Source of the DNA: Thioploca sp.
Lineage (GTDB): Bacteria > Pseudomonadota > Gammaproteobacteria > Beggiatoales > Beggiatoaceae
Direction of reading: 5' to 3'
Assembly (NCBI GenBank): GCA_030627125.1
Contig: DAOUSR010000014.1
Span: 1 to 32,773, forward strand
Length of the DNA: 32,773 bases
The stretch's first letter is position 1, and the number at the start of each line of letters is the position of its first letter. Made by a program: the position numbers and the translations under genes. Positions 21,450 through 27,625 of the stretch are shown piece after piece. A model generated the notes under the pieces. That model saw nothing but the letters and a program-made list of their open reading frames with translations. It ran no database searches and was not told the DNA's origin.

Positions 21450-24400
21450 CTAAAATTCAAATCCTATTATAGTAATATCGTCCTGTGGCTTATTGTCACC
21501 TCTATATTCATCAAAGAGTTTAAACAATTCTTTTTGTTGGATAGCAAAATCATGGTGATTATTTTTTAATAACATCTTTTCAAACCGTTTATTACCTAAC
21601 GGAAAGCGTTTTTTACCGCCAAATTGATCGATAAAACCATCAGTAGAAATATAGAAAGATGTTTCTGTAGTTGCAATTGTATGGGTAGTAAAAGGAAAAT
21701 TGTTTTTAGCCTTTTTATAACCTAAGCTCTCTCTATCACCTTTTATAGTAGTGATTACGTTATTTTTAATATAATTTAACGCTAATCTGGCTCCAGCAAA
21801 ATCTAAAGTTTTAGTCTGAAAATCAATCATACAAATTGCTGCATCTAAACCATCATCAGAATCAACATGTTCAGTATCTTGTTGTAAAGCAGTTTTTACG
21901 GAAAAGCCTAATTTTTGCAGAATTTTAGCTGGTTCATAACAATTTTCATCTCTAGTAATACGTCTTAAACTGGTTGAGGCAACCATAGCCATAAAAGCAC
22001 CTGGAACGCCATGTCCAGTACAATCCATTATCGCAATAACTAATTTATCAGCAAAAGATTCAGCATAAATAATATCGCCTCCAACAATATCTCGTGGCAT
22101 CCAGGCAAAAAAATGTTTAGGCAAAATAGCGTTAATTCGATCTGAATTAGGCAATAATGAGCTTTGAATAGTTTTTGCGTATCGAATGCTATCTATCATC
22201 ATTTCATTAACAGCCTCAATTGCCGCTAAACGGACAGTTTCTACTTGTAATTTTTTAATTTTAAGATGGGTTCTTAATCTAGCTAATAATTCATCTTTGA
22301 CAATTGGCTTAGTTAAGTAATCATTAGCTCCAGCATCCAAACCTTTGACTAAATCCTCAATTTGATTTTTAGCAGTCAACAGTAAAATTGGTAATTCATC
22401 AGCTTGCCATTTTTCCCTAAGTTTACTGGTTACTTCATAACCTGAGAGTTTTGGCATCATAACATCCAATAGAATTGCATCTGGTTTCAAACCAGCAGCT
22501 ATTAATTCCAAAGCTTTTACTCCTGAATTTGCCTGAATTATATTATGATTTTCTAATATTAAATAGTTCTCTAATACTTGTAGATTAACTGGCTCATCAT
22601 CAACAATTAAGATATTAGAACCTACGCTATCTTTTAAGATATTAGAATCTGTGCTATCTTTTACTATGGTTGCAATTTCAGCTTTTTTAACTTTTTGTCT
22701 TGCCGTATTTTCTTGAATACTTTCTATTTTAGATACTTGAACTGCTTCGGTTGCTAATGGAATTGCTTTGCCTTCTGCAATTGGTAAAGTGAAAAATAAT
22801 TGGGAACCTTTGCCAAGAGTCGATTCCGCCCAAATTTTACCACCATGTAGTTCAACTAATTGTTTAGTTACCGCTAAACCTAAACCAGTTCCACCATACT
22901 CTCTGGCAGTAGAACCTTCAGCTTGCTCGAATGAACCAAAAATACTTTCTAATTTATTTGTTGGAATACCAATTCCAGTATCGGCAACTTTTATTTCTAT
23001 ATATGAATCAATTATTTTAGTAGTAATTTCAATTGCTCCAGTTTCAGTAAATTTTATTGCATTCCCAATTAAATTATGAAAAATTTGTTGTAACCGATTT
23101 TCATCGGCCTGAACTGGGGGTAAATTTTGAGAAATAGTATTAAATAATTGAAGGTCTTTATCTTGTATCAAAGGTTGACTTAGATTAAATACTACTCCAA
23201 TAATATCTTGCAATGAGATTGACTTTAATTGTAATTCTAACTTTTTTTGTTTGAGAGTAGAAAAATCTAAAATATCATTTACTAAGTTAGCCAAACGTTT
23301 ACCGCTACTAGCAATCATAGCAAGGTTATTTATAGTTTTTTCTGATAATTGACCAGTTGCTCCATCAATCAAAGATTCTGCTAGACCAATAATCCCATTC
23401 AAAGGAGTACGCAATTCGTGGGAAGTATTGGCTAAAAATTCATCTTTTAGTTTATTGGCTTCTTGTAATTGTTCATTAAAAGCTCTGGTAAAAGCTAATT
23501 TTCTATGTTGAGCTATAAAAATTCCAATAATACTACCTAAGATAACAATGGTATAAATAGTATAAGCCCACCAAGTTTGCCACCAAGGTGGTAAGATAGT
23601 AACTTGCACTGAAGTACCGACTTCATTCCATAAATCATCATTGTTAGAAGCTTTTACGCTGAAATTATATTTACCAGCATCCAAGTTGGTATAAGTAGCA
23701 AACCGCCGAGTGCTGTCAACATAAGTCCACTCTTTATCGAAACCTTCCATCATATAAGCATATTGATTTTTATCCGAAGCTCGATAATTTAATGCAACAA
23801 ATTCTAAACTGAATACCGATTGTTCATATGATAAGGTAATCTGTTTGGCAAAATTAATAGGAACTTGTAAAGGAGAGGTTTTACTTGCTATTACTGATTG
23901 ATTAAATATCTGAAAATCAGTTAAAATTACTGGTGGAATATGAAGATTATCTTTAAGTTTATTTGGATAAAATGTATTAAAACCATTAATTCCACCAAAA
24001 AATAATTCTCCAGTCGTACTTTTATACACTGAACTTGGTAGAAATAAATTCCCCTGCAATCCATCACGTTTGTCATAATTTCTAAAAGTTTCAGTTTTGG
24101 GATTAAATTTGGATAAACCATTATTAGTACTGATCCATAAATAACCTTGTTCATCTTCTAAAATACCAGCAACACTATTACCAACCAAACCATGTTTAGC
24201 TTGATAAGAAGTAAATGTTTGAGATGACTTATTAAATTTGTTTAAGCCATTACTAGTTCCAATCCAAATTGTACCAGTTTTATCTTCCACAATAGTAGAA
24301 ATAACCGCACTGCTTAAACTATCAGGATTATCGGTTGGTATATAATTGGTGAAGGTTTGTTGAATTGGATCAAAACGACTCACTCCAGAATCATCGGCCC

Positions 24401-25979
24401 CAACCCAAATCATCCCAGACGAAGCTACCTTTACTACAGATAACGAATCAGCAACAACACTATTTGGATTGTCTGCATCATGTATGTAATGTTCAATAAT
24501 TTTAGTAATTGGATTAAATTTATCTAACCCACCACCCATAGTAGAAATCCACAAATTACCACTAGCATCAATATCAATATCCCATATAACATCAAAACTC
24601 AAACTATTCGAATCATTGGGAATATGTTGATAATGCACAAAATCTTCTGTTTTTGGATCAAAATGATTCAAACCGCCACCTTCAGTAGCAATCCATAATT
24701 TACCATCATTATCAGCTTGAATATCCATAACTAGGTCATTACTAATACTATGGGAATTTTTATTATTATGTCGGTAATGAGTAGAAGTTGTTTGCTCTAA
24801 TTTATTGAGTCCACCACCTTTAGTTCCTATCCATAATATATTATTGTCTTTGTAAATAGAGGTTACTTGATTGTTATTTAAACTATTTTTATCTGATGGT
24901 TTATGTTTATAAGTAATAAATCTATCATGGGCTGGGTCGTATTTATTTATCCCATTATCTGTTGTAATCCATAATATGCCAGTATTATCTTCATAAATCC
25001 CAAAAATCGTATTATTACTTAAACTATGTGGATTATTTGGTTCGGCTTGGTAATGAATAAAATGCTTATTAAGCCGATCAAATTGATTTAACCCGCCACC
25101 TAACGTACCTATCCATAACCTTGTTTTGCTATCTTCGTAAATTGAAGTTACTAAGTTATGACTCAAACTATTAGGATCATTTTTATCACTTTGATAATGG
25201 ACAAATGTTTGGGTTTTAGGGTCGAATCGATCCAAGCCATTTTCAGTAGCAAGCCACATAAATCCTTCACTATCTTTGATAATTGACCGCATAGAGTCAC
25301 TAGCTAAACTATTAGGATTAGTTGCATCATGTTGATAATGAACAAAAGATTTCGTTTGCGGATTAAATGTATTCAAACCTCCACCATAGGTACTAATCCA
25401 TAGTATATTATCATCATCTTGGTAAATAGAATAAGTTTTATTATGACTTAAGCTATTGGAATTATTTGGATCATGTTGGTAATTAGTAAAAGTTTCATTG
25501 CTAGGATTAAATCTACTAAAACCATTGTTATAAATTATTACCCATATAACACCAGTTTTATCTTCATAAACAGATTGGATATTATCACTGGTTAAACTAC
25601 TAGGGTTATTTGGATCATGCTGATACCTAGTAAAGGTTTCTGTTTTAGGATCAAATTTGTTTAATCCACCACCAAAAGTTGTAATCCATAAATTTCCGTT
25701 CCGGTCTTTAATTAAAAACCAAGTGTAATTATTACTGAGGCTATTTGAATTATCTGGATCATATTTATAAATAGTAAATTCTGCACCATCATATTTAGCC
25801 AAACCATTTTTAGTCGCAAACCATATAAAACCTTGATCATCTTGAACAACAGAACTAGTAAAATTACTGGGCAAACCGTCTTCAACATTTAAATGTTCAA
25901 ATTCGATATTATTCCCTTGAGCAGCTATAAACGCTACTAAAAAAATAGTTCCCACAATATTTTGAAATAAGATTTTCAT
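21450..25979 (-). CDS. Giant hybrid sensor histidine kinase with receiver and SpoIIE-type phosphatase
   Basis: From the chosen start the product is 1509 residues. It has an N-terminal signal sequence (MKILFQNIVGTIFLVAF) and 14 Reg_prop repeats of about 47 residues (pattern LWIxTxGGGLNKFDPxTxTF), which should form two seven-bladed propellers. A Y_Y_Y domain (about 690-780), one membrane span (WWAYTIYTIVILGSIIGIFI), HisKA with H854 in SHELRTPLNG, and a HATPase (DTGIGIP, GTGLGL) follow. A receiver with D1172 in ILLDVMMPKLSG and a SpoIIE/PP2C serine phosphatase (residues about 1260-1509; MDCTGHGVPGAF at 1318) complete it. The protein probably binds a periplasmic ligand such as a glycan and can send its signal through phosphotransfer or dephosphorylation of a partner. 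A longer frame reaches a TTG at 26051, but the ATG at 25979 gives a proper signal peptide. The partner protein is not visible. Confidence 0.9.
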   Translation of the reverse strand: MKILFQNIVGTIFLVAFIAAQGNNIEFEHLNVEDGLPSNFTSSVVQDDQGFIWFATKNGLAKYDGAEFTIYKYDPDNSNSLSNNYTWFLIKDRNGNLWITTFGGGLNKFDPKTETFTRYQHDPNNPSSLTSDNIQSVYEDKTGVIWVIIYNNGFSRFNPSNETFTNYQHDPNNSNSLSHNKTYSIYQDDDNILWISTYGGGLNTFNPQTKSFVHYQHDATNPNSLASDSMRSIIKDSEGFMWLATENGLDRFDPKTQTFVHYQSDKNDPNSLSHNLVTSIYEDSKTRLWIGTLGGGLNQFDRLNKHFIHYQAEPNNPHSLSNNTIFGIYEDNTGILWITTDNGINKYDPAHDRFITYKHKPSDKNSLNNNQVTSIYKDNNILWIGTKGGGLNKLEQTTSTHYRHNNKNSHSISNDLVMDIQADNDGKLWIATEGGGLNHFDPKTEDFVHYQHIPNDSNSLSFDVIWDIDIDASGNLWISTMGGGLDKFNPITKIIEHYIHDADNPNSVVADSLSVVKVASSGMIWVGADDSGVSRFDPIQQTFTNYIPTDNPDSLSSAVISTIVEDKTGTIWIGTSNGLNKFNKSSQTFTSYQAKHGLVGNSVAGILEDEQGYLWISTNNGLSKFNPKTETFRNYDKRDGLQGNLFLPSSVYKSTTGELFFGGINGFNTFYPNKLKDNLHIPPVILTDFQIFNQSVIASKTSPLQVPINFAKQITLSYEQSVFSLEFVALNYRASDKNQYAYMMEGFDKEWTYVDSTRRFATYTNLDAGKYNFSVKASNNDDLWNEVGTSVQVTILPPWWQTWWAYTIYTIVILGSIIGIFIAQHRKLAFTRAFNEQLQEANKLKDEFLANTSHELRTPLNGIIGLAESLIDGATGQLSEKTINNLAMIASSGKRLANLVNDILDFSTLKQKKLELQLKSISLQDIIGVVFNLSQPLIQDKDLQLFNTISQNLPPVQADENRLQQIFHNLIGNAIKFTETGAIEITTKIIDSYIEIKVADTGIGIPTNKLESIFGSFEQAEGSTAREYGGTGLGLAVTKQLVELHGGKIWAESTLGKGSQLFFTLPIAEGKAIPLATEAVQVSKIESIQENTARQKVKKAEIATIVKDSTDSNILKDSVGSNILIVDDEPVNLQVLENYLILENHNIIQANSGVKALELIAAGLKPDAILLDVMMPKLSGYEVTSKLREKWQADELPILLLTAKNQIEDLVKGLDAGANDYLTKPIVKDELLARLRTHLKIKKLQVETVRLAAIEAVNEMMIDSIRYAKTIQSSLLPNSDRINAILPKHFFAWMPRDIVGGDIIYAESFADKLVIAIMDCTGHGVPGAFMAMVASTSLRRITRDENCYEPAKILQKLGFSVKTALQQDTEHVDSDDGLDAAICMIDFQTKTLDFAGARLALNYIKNNVITTIKGDRESLGYKKAKNNFPFTTHTIATTETSFYISTDGFIDQFGGKKRFPLGNKRFEKMLLKNNHHDFAIQQKELFKLFDEYRGDNKPQDDITIIGFEF
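22609..22662 (-). repeat. 27-bp tandem duplication in the kinase-receiver linker
   Basis: Two adjacent 27-base copies (22609-22635 and 22636-22662) match at 24 of 27 positions. They encode KDSTDSNIL and KDSVGSNIL directly before the receiver strand ILIVDDEP, so the second copy seems to duplicate the start of the receiver domain into the linker. Confidence 0.85.
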
Positions 25980-26074: not shown

Positions 26075-27625
26075 TTAAGCAATTAATAATGCAGTTTTAG
26101 CAGCAAAATTTAAGGTTTCTACTAATAATTTATTTAATACTTCTTGACGATTAGTTTCTGTTAATGTCAATTCTTCGCCAGTTTGTTGATTGGTAACATT
26201 GAGTGTAAGTTTACCATCTGCCACCCAATTTTCTAATAACTTTAGCAATTCAGCATGACTATGTTTACCATCTAAATAAGGTAGCATTCGTAGACAAACA
26301 GCATTTTGCATTATCTGCCATTCACTGCGTAAATTAGTTATCTTAGCACTTTGTTTGGCTTGCCAACTAGCTAAAGGGCTGGCTTGCGGATATTCACTTA
26401 CTGTATTGACAATTGCAGTTGGTTGACTGTGTAACTCAATTATACCCTTAGAATAACCCATTAATAAAACATTAGTGATAGTTTCTTGATCGGTTGCAGA
26501 GTTAGAATTAGTGTCTTGTCGAGCTTGTTCAAGCAATTCGTCAAATTTTACTGCTCTAGGCCATTCCTTACTTAAATACCGCAAAGCAGATTGTACAATA
26601 AGTTTAGGAGTAGATAAAGTTCCTCTACTATTTTCAAACTTTTCGTAGGAATCGGCAACTGGTTGCATGGAAGATGCAATATACAAATTGGCCAATATTG
26701 CTGGTGATAAATTGCGGTTTAATTTTATATCATTATGGCATAATAAAGTGTGACGAAAACTGCGGTTACTCAATATATCCATCATCTGTTCTTGAACCAG
26801 CAAATCACTGTTAAACATTTGTAATGCTTGTTTTTGTGATTCAGAAAAATTATCTGGTAACATAGTATGTAAAATAGCATCTCCCAGATAGTTTAAGTTA
26901 TGAGTCTTGGCTCGTTGCATAAATTGATGGAAGTACAAAGGTTGATTTTCCTCTTCCACCAGTTCGGTACAAACAAATGTTTCTGGTAACTTAATTAAGT
27001 TATTAACTTCTTCACCAATAAATTGTTCGTAAGGGTCTTGAGTTTCCTTAGTTGCGTCAAGTAAAAAACGTAACAAAGCTTTATGTTGATTAATCTTGGT
27101 AGCTGGCTCTTCAATTGAAGCTGATAAATACTGCATCATATCACGTATAGTGTTGTTAATATTCCAACCCGGTTTAGTATTAAAACCAATATAAGCAACT
27201 CCATTGGGAGCTAAATTATGTTCACAGATACTAAAAATTTTCTCTTGTACTTCTGGTGTCACCCATGAAAAAATTCCATGAGCTATAATATAATCAAACT
27301 GGCCAAAATCAGCATCAATATCTAAAATATCAGCCTGTTTTAGAGTAATATTTGGTAGTTTCAAGCCATCAATAACTGCTTGTCCGGTAGTTATATTTGG
27401 TTCAGATGCGTCTATACCTGTAATATTCGCCTCTGGTAACGCATAAGCGGTAGGAATAATATTACTACCATCACAACAACCTAGCTCTAAAACTCGACAA
27501 GTTGATAATGAAGGTGGGGTCATACCAAAGAGAGTAGCTAAAGTAGCCAATCTATCTGGTTGAGCATAAGGCATCGCATTACAGGTATGTGGTAATTCAT
27601 CAAAAGTTGTTTGAGATAATAGCAT
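26075..27625 (-). CDS. PKMT-like methyltransferase with methyltransferase regulatory domain
   Basis: The 516-residue product has a SAM-dependent Rossmann domain: motif I VLELGCCDGSNIIPTAYALP, ITGIDASEPNI as motif II, and FDYIIAHGIFSWV as motif IV. The next region (about 215-300) has the layout of the methyltransferase regulatory domain family, and the C-terminus (about 350-516, LRYLSKEWPRAVKFDELLEQA onward) looks winged-helix-like. This architecture is that of the Rickettsia lysine methyltransferases that modify outer-membrane protein OmpB. A protein-lysine methyltransferase acting on a surface or secreted protein is therefore possible; the substrate is not shown. It lacks a signal peptide. 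It lies just upstream of the hybrid kinase on the same strand (95 bases before its ATG), so they may share a transcript. The ATG has no clear Shine-Dalgarno sequence. Confidence 0.8.
   Translation of the reverse strand: MLLSQTTFDELPHTCNAMPYAQPDRLATLATLFGMTPPSLSTCRVLELGCCDGSNIIPTAYALPEANITGIDASEPNITTGQAVIDGLKLPNITLKQADILDIDADFGQFDYIIAHGIFSWVTPEVQEKIFSICEHNLAPNGVAYIGFNTKPGWNINNTIRDMMQYLSASIEEPATKINQHKALLRFLLDATKETQDPYEQFIGEEVNNLIKLPETFVCTELVEEENQPLYFHQFMQRAKTHNLNYLGDAILHTMLPDNFSESQKQALQMFNSDLLVQEQMMDILSNRSFRHTLLCHNDIKLNRNLSPAILANLYIASSMQPVADSYEKFENSRGTLSTPKLIVQSALRYLSKEWPRAVKFDELLEQARQDTNSNSATDQETITNVLLMGYSKGIIELHSQPTAIVNTVSEYPQASPLASWQAKQSAKITNLRSEWQIMQNAVCLRMLPYLDGKHSHAELLKLLENWVADGKLTLNVTNQQTGEELTLTETNRQEVLNKLLVETLNFAAKTALLIA

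Follow-up and report, generated by a model that had tools for sequence, protein, structure and literature searches.

What does a periplasmic propeller sensor control when its signalling chain ends in a serine phosphatase? The question is raised by a gene in a 32,773-nucleotide stretch of DNA from Thioploca sp. (hereafter the window), which constitutes contig C138 in a draft genome of 3.28 Mb and 85% completeness. The original prediction held that a single protein unites 14 propeller blades, a histidine kinase, a receiver and a SpoIIE-type phosphatase resembling SiaA, and that the phosphatase might act on an unknown anti-anti-sigma-like partner, with no STAS gene visible. Our analyses favor a reading in which the protein is a sensor-fused SiaA whose relay reaches the PP2C domain, with phospho-SiaC as the substrate and SiaB as the opposing kinase. 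We give this reading as a whole a probability of about 0.6.

The gene occupies positions 21450 to 25979 of the minus strand, on which all of its features lie, and encodes 1509 amino acids in one uninterrupted open reading frame starting at an ATG (25979). The longest open reading frame starts at a TTG (26051) and has 1533 codons, but we prefer the ATG because the signal-peptide-like segment comes after it; residue numbers here follow the 1509-residue scale, which is the 1533-residue numbering minus 24. The N terminus resembles a signal peptide in sequence and hydropathy (residues 1-21, MKILFQNIVGTIFLVAFIAAQ; 25917-25979). It is followed by 14 Reg_prop blades making up two seven-bladed propellers (residues 22-700; 23880-25916; PF07494, 7.8e-53), as judged from the predicted structure and from 14 motifs located by eye at residues 53, 98, 146, 194, 242, 289, 337, 383, 429, 477, 525, 572, 615 and 660. 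A Y_Y_Y domain (residues 731-796; 23592-23789; PF07495, 2.3e-18) precedes a single transmembrane helix (residues 805-823; 23511-23567; hydropathy 2.12). Next come a HisKA domain with the phospho-acceptor His854 in the motif HELRTP (residues 845-910; 23250-23447; PF00512, 1.5e-17), a HATPase_c domain with intact N, G1 and G2 boxes (residues 959-1068; 22776-23105; PF02518, 1.3e-30), and a receiver in which the DD pair, the phospho-acceptor Asp1172, and the conserved T and K are all present (residues 1123-1235; 22275-22613; PF00072, 1.4e-27), so that the catalytic residues of kinase and receiver are intact. In the structural model, a continuous helix leads from alpha5 of the receiver into the PP2C domain (residues 1228-1274; 22158-22298), and the PP2C/SpoIIE phosphatase itself (residues 1254-1509; 21453-22220; PF07228, 3.5e-15) ends the protein; no DNA-binding domain was found at the C terminus in the Pfam search. 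All Pfam matches exceed their cut-offs (spans in 1533-residue numbering: Y_Y_Y 755-820, HisKA 869-934, HATPase_c 983-1092, Response_reg 1147-1259 and SpoIIE 1335-1531). The domain composition originally read from the letters is thus borne out by the reading frame, the Pfam search and the blade motifs.

Three further genomes of the genus contain the protein in full length, with 1525, 1509 and 1510 amino acids, and hence the domain fusion is not an assembly artifact. Identity to these orthologues is 74-77% in the propeller, 86-89% in the Y_Y_Y and transmembrane part, 79-80% in the kinase, 85-88% in the receiver and 76-78% in the PP2C domain, with only the connector between kinase and receiver falling to 29-38%; a chimera is ruled out by this 74-89% identity across the folded domains. 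The orthologue was not found in the fifth genome of the genus, which is 63% complete. Scans for promoters and terminators around the gene gave signals at the level of shuffled sequence, and the TAACTGA repeats known from marine Beggiatoaceae appear as six single copies, which is the level expected by chance.

A gene for a PKMT-like protein lysine methyltransferase (26075-27625, minus strand; PDB 5dnk, 7.6e-84) lies directly upstream and co-directional in all four sensor-bearing genomes of the genus, whereas the downstream flanks differ. The case for this enzyme as a dedicated partner of the sensor is weakened by its spread through the family (32 of 58 genomes) and by the failure to find it next to propeller genes outside the genus.

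When the C-terminal 256 residues were compared with PDB sequences by phmmer, the best match was the PP2C domain of SiaA (6K4E, 1.7e-42), and no other significant phosphatase match was returned. The predicted structure superposes on 6K4E with an rmsd of 1.9 A over 242 residues, and a fold search places 6K4E first, at Z 32.1 compared with 22.2 for the phosphatase domain of RssB and for Rv1364c. The metal ligands reported for SiaA (D457, D474, C475, D600 and D653; PMC7647112) are all retained: residues D1302, D1319, C1320, D1447, G1448 and D1500 correspond to SiaA D457, D474, C475, D600, G601 and D653, which rules out a pseudophosphatase. On the SiaA model NF038263 the protein scores 208 bits, through the PP2C part only, compared with 40-77 for the genome's three other full-length PP2Cs, which are RsbU-like. 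However, 208 bits is far below the full-length equivalog cut-off of 700, and the protein is therefore SiaA-type but not SiaA itself. Among the six SpoIIE loci of the genome, only the sensor gene carries the SiaA motif DCTGHGVPGAFM; the other five are RsbU-like PP2Cs on C123, C99 and C176 (GDVTGHGLESGVL where the motif is present) and two C-terminal fragments of RsbU-like type. That this is the only SiaA-type PP2C of the genome is provisional, given 85% completeness. The output domain is specifically SiaA-type, being closer to SiaA than to the RsbU, RssB and SpoIIE phosphatases, and the likeness to SiaA proposed earlier is upheld in fold, profile score, motif and metal-binding aspartates.

The likely partners of a SiaA-type phosphatase are SiaB and SiaC. 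Searching the genome for STAS-domain and anti-sigma kinase genes returned siaC, two siaB genes and three pairs of kinase and STAS-like genes. The reported absence of a STAS gene is thus true of the window but not of the genome, and in place of an unknown partner SiaC can be named as a probable one. The siaC gene (PF09345, also called DUF1987, with a STAS-like fold; 1.6e-40) is present in a single copy on contig C65, with siaB (PF19788, 9.2e-38) directly upstream; a second, lone siaB is on contig C43. The C65 siaB scores 172.5 bits against NF038262 (cut-off 85), and the two proteins match SiaC and SiaB of the PDB at 6.2e-20 and 1e-19, respectively. In the alignment, the P. aeruginosa SiaC peptide containing Thr68, LLYLNTSSIK, reads LIYFNSSSSK, so the residue at the place of the phospho-site is a serine (YFNSSSSK), as it is in all five genomes of the genus. 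The gene order on C65 (L015:1349-8608) is CheA-like, CheW-like, histidine kinase, siaB, siaC and rodA. The cluster from the histidine kinase to rodA is kept in all five genus genomes, four of which also have the CheA-like and CheW-like genes beside it. All four sensor-bearing genomes thus possess siaB and siaC side by side, on a contig separate from that of the sensor gene in every case. Neither finding that was to count against the earlier prediction, loss of the metal-binding aspartates or lack of a partner in every genome with the gene, was obtained.

The distribution of these genes in relatives also ties this phosphatase type to SiaC. In a sample of 276 Gammaproteobacteria drawn evenly, matches to our PP2C alignment A1 (E <= 1e-20) and to SiaC (E <= 1e-10) fall in the identical nine genomes, from eight families (Fisher p 1e-15 with our own genome left out, in a test that ignores shared ancestry). 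In eight of the nine, all but our own, the two genes share a contig and a neighborhood. Among 58 closer relatives, 17 have the PP2C and 15 have SiaC, with 13 having both, 4 the PP2C only, 2 SiaC only and 39 neither, leaving out weak SiaC matches in two genomes, G014 and G033 (p 7e-8, again ignoring shared ancestry). The four relatives with a PP2C but no detected SiaC are an assembly of 910 contigs (G005), a genome with a broken PP2C gene (G015), one that is 85% complete (G034) and one with diverged PP2Cs (G035). The broken gene (L107, G015:C104, about 256657-257189) consists of two overlapping fragments with a stop, and it is possible that the system as a whole was lost there. In the two nearly complete genus genomes, which have 6 and 3 SiaA-type PP2C matches and 3 siaC genes each, the pairing is not one-to-one.

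At 102 SiaA-type PP2C loci (one Thioploca locus being present twice, as L078 and L112), siaC lies within 4 kb in 32 cases, of which 27 are on the same strand. For example, a Cache-HAMP-HK-REC-PAS-PP2C gene is followed by siaB and siaC at L076, L077 agrees with it in gene order and domain matches, and an HK-REC-PP2C gene of 1112 codons has siaB and siaC upstream at L111. Within the genus, a propeller-YYY-PP2C gene without a kinase starts 7 bp after siaC (L084), and a gene of the same composition lies 1.7 kb from siaC on a Bacteroidota contig (L158). Through L076, L077, L111 and L084, both halves of the sensor protein, HK-REC-PP2C and propeller-PP2C, are thus physically linked to siaC in one organism or another. 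In the PP2C tree, the sister of the window clade is a PP2C of Thioploca sp. SL_4_0 (SH-aLRT 95) that adjoins siaB-siaC. Two Cache-type HK-REC-PP2C proteins, L075 and L111, have near-identical PP2Cs on short branches; the missing SiaC at L075 may be an assembly gap, as that contig is only 3.7 kb long.

On these grounds we strongly infer that SiaC is the substrate of the phosphatase. Alternatively, the PP2C could act on another STAS protein in the manner of RsbU and feed a sigma factor or some other partner switch. Candidates exist, as contigs C239, C230 and C197 each carry a divergent SiaB-like (weak DUF6272) kinase gene with a STAS-like gene of 114-120 codons, and these pairs are further partner switches besides siaBC; PF01740 proteins are also encoded on C36 and C218, and the sensor gene lies apart from siaBC. 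However, motif, tree and profile score all make the PP2C SiaA-type, phosphatases of that type co-occur and share operons with SiaC, and the RsbU-like PP2Cs of the same genome would suit the three pairs, so that we regard action on another STAS protein as quite unlikely. In Pseudomonas, SiaC activates a diguanylate cyclase, SiaD, and has no known action on a sigma factor (PMC8457831).

How the signal reaches the phosphatase is suggested by the receiver-PP2C segment. Its AlphaFold2 model (pLDDT 91) contains a 47-residue helix (112-158 of 393, mostly at pLDDT 78-93) and matches P. aeruginosa RssB, a receiver-linker-PP2C protein, over its whole length (Z 27.4). With an rmsd of 8.5 the domain orientation differs from that of RssB. 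Helical linkers of this kind set PP2C activity through dimerization in RsbU and RssB (PMC12143880), and in HsbR a phosphorylated receiver accompanies phosphatase activity (PMC6482189). We infer that the PP2C domain is controlled by phosphotransfer to the receiver. By analogy, the phosphatase probably becomes more active when Asp1172 is phosphorylated, although the sign is a guess.

The receiver might instead act as a sink for phosphate, or as a hub on which other kinases or phosphotransfer proteins converge, with the PP2C domain constitutive or driven directly by conformational changes of propeller and transmembrane helix. Such direct coupling has precedent. In the same-genus protein L084 and in several proteins of Bacteroidota, propeller-YYY leads directly into a SiaA-type PP2C, and these proteins, lacking kinase and receiver, work without a relay. 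Nevertheless, the receiver keeps its catalytic residues and is among the best-conserved parts of the protein, the model runs its helix unbroken into the PP2C domain, and HK-REC-PP2C combinations are spread over four distinct clades in the PP2C tree, albeit with modest backbone support. We consider a receiver that does not gate the phosphatase unlikely.

Under the preferred reading of a sensor-fused SiaA, the propellers and Y_Y_Y domain would sense an extracytoplasmic ligand in the periplasm, and the signal passing through the single transmembrane helix would set the activity of a dimeric histidine kinase. The kinase would phosphorylate the receiver (His854 to Asp1172), whose state would travel along the unbroken helix to a dimer of SiaA-type PP2C domains and turn phosphatase activity up or down. 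The PP2C would then dephosphorylate phospho-SiaC, which is encoded elsewhere in the genome, and the SiaB kinase of the siaB-siaC operon would oppose it by re-phosphorylating SiaC. Unphosphorylated SiaC would engage an effector, a role that the diguanylate cyclase SiaD plays in P. aeruginosa.

The effector in Thioploca may be a diguanylate cyclase or another protein. About 17 GGDEF loci are present in the genome, and the sole one near siaC is a fragment of 105 residues on C65 (L212, G000:C65:863-1141), 1.6 kb downstream and possibly a remnant. No stalked SiaD was found among the GGDEF proteins of the genome, and the short ones are mostly REC-GGDEF. At three loci from two genomes of one related genus, siaC adjoins a gene for a PAS-PAS-class III nucleotidyl cyclase-REC protein (L079:9762-12170, L080:8087-10633 and L081:6204-8845; Pfam-checked in the first two), which is a possible alternative effector. 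In our own genus, each of the five genomes has siaC just upstream of rodA, with 2-10 bp between them, and the cluster suggests a link of the partner switch to cell elongation. On the basis of this spacing, a periplasmic glycan signal might pass through the His-Asp relay and SiaC serine dephosphorylation to cell-wall elongation and not to a diguanylate cyclase, a scheme that we think very unlikely as a whole.

The origin of the sensor appears to lie in the exchange of modules. Paralogous YYY-HK-REC modules in the same genome, 55-60% identical to that of the sensor, carry other outputs: PAS-GGDEF-EAL in a protein of 1781 residues on C82 (L231), PAS-PAS-class III cyclase, cut by the contig end, on C18 (L230), and PASx3-HK-REC on C61 (L232). 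This is output swapping within one genome. In a tree resting on the HK-REC part (limited to columns filled in at least 30% of rows; a spurious weak kinase match in the propeller had lengthened the rows of the window and of G004), the clade of the window protein groups with a PocR-HK-REC-PP2C protein at 92/90. The propeller-HK-REC proteins with other outputs cluster separately at 94/91, and both support values fall short of the threshold of 95. The tree leans toward, and suggests, an HK-REC-PP2C core that existed before the propeller joined.

One could argue that ordinary output swapping is the whole story, with the sensor being one more mosaic of a propeller-YYY-HK-REC set with interchangeable outputs and having no distinct role. 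The paralogues with other outputs fit such a view, as does the description of Beggiatoaceae hybrid kinases as mosaics, two of them with a terminal SpoIIE, in an earlier report (PMC5108060). However, full-length conservation in four of five genus genomes, at 74-89% identity by domain and with intact active sites, indicates that the protein is maintained. Swapping explains the origin of the sensor more than it competes on function, and we find a mosaic without a role of its own highly improbable.

The sensor is a new domain combination of known modules. Among the 58 relatives and the best 80 loci of a wider contig search, the exact string of propeller, YYY, HK, REC and SiaA-type PP2C occurs only in this genus, although it may well occur in organisms beyond it. 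A literature search for Reg_prop or two-component regulator propellers joined to SpoIIE found none. Hybrid kinases ending in SpoIIE were described from Beggiatoaceae, the family of Thioploca, and from cyanobacteria in 2016 (MacGregor 2016, PMC5108060); the accessible part of that paper does not mention propellers or a link to SiaB and SiaC, and calls those SpoIIE domains cyanobacteria-like.

The closest known counterpart of the periplasmic part is BT4663, the heparin sensor of a Bacteroides hybrid two-component system, which likewise has 14 blades, Y_Y_Y, a transmembrane helix, kinase and receiver in one chain. Its ectodomain is the top PDB match by sequence (1.5e-124), and the predicted structure of our sensor part (pLDDT 82, lowest between the two propellers) superposes on it at rank 1 of a PDB fold search (Z 44.2, 737 residues aligned). 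By analogy with the Bacteroides sensors, the ligand is possibly a poly- or oligosaccharide. Those systems end in a transcription factor, whereas the Thioploca protein ends in a SiaA-type PP2C.

Receiver and PP2C are joined by a helical linker in HsbR, CrsR and RssB as they are here, but those proteins are separate soluble response regulators, whereas in our protein a membrane sensor carries kinase and receiver in the same chain and the phosphatase is of SiaA type. HsbR and CrsR moreover have their own C-terminal HATPase kinase/anti-sigma domain, a part that the Thioploca protein lacks. The propeller-YYY-PP2C proteins of Bacteroidota (L158, L161 and L167) share both sensor and PP2C subfamily but have neither kinase nor receiver, and one of them, L158, is encoded near siaB-siaC.

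The output side resembles SiaABCD of Pseudomonas aeruginosa in PP2C subfamily, in the complete set of metal ligands, and in the SiaB and SiaC homologues with the position of the phospho-site kept (Ser for Thr68). In P. aeruginosa, SiaA is a sensor-TM-HAMP-PP2C protein (PMC7647112), and here propeller-YYY-HK-REC replaces sensor and HAMP, with the gene outside the siaBC operon. Probable partners can now be named for what had seemed an orphan phosphatase. One family also offers a natural test series, in which a single type of SiaA-like PP2C is preceded by cache-HK-REC, PocR-HK-REC, propeller or propeller-HK-REC. With it one can test the general idea that PP2C phosphatases freely accept receiver, HAMP, PAS or GAF modules in exchange for one another on a preceding coiled coil. 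The sensor looks like a hybrid of two known bacterial signaling circuits, a sugar-sensing hybrid two-component system and the SiaABC partner switch, which are normally apart and are here joined in one chain.
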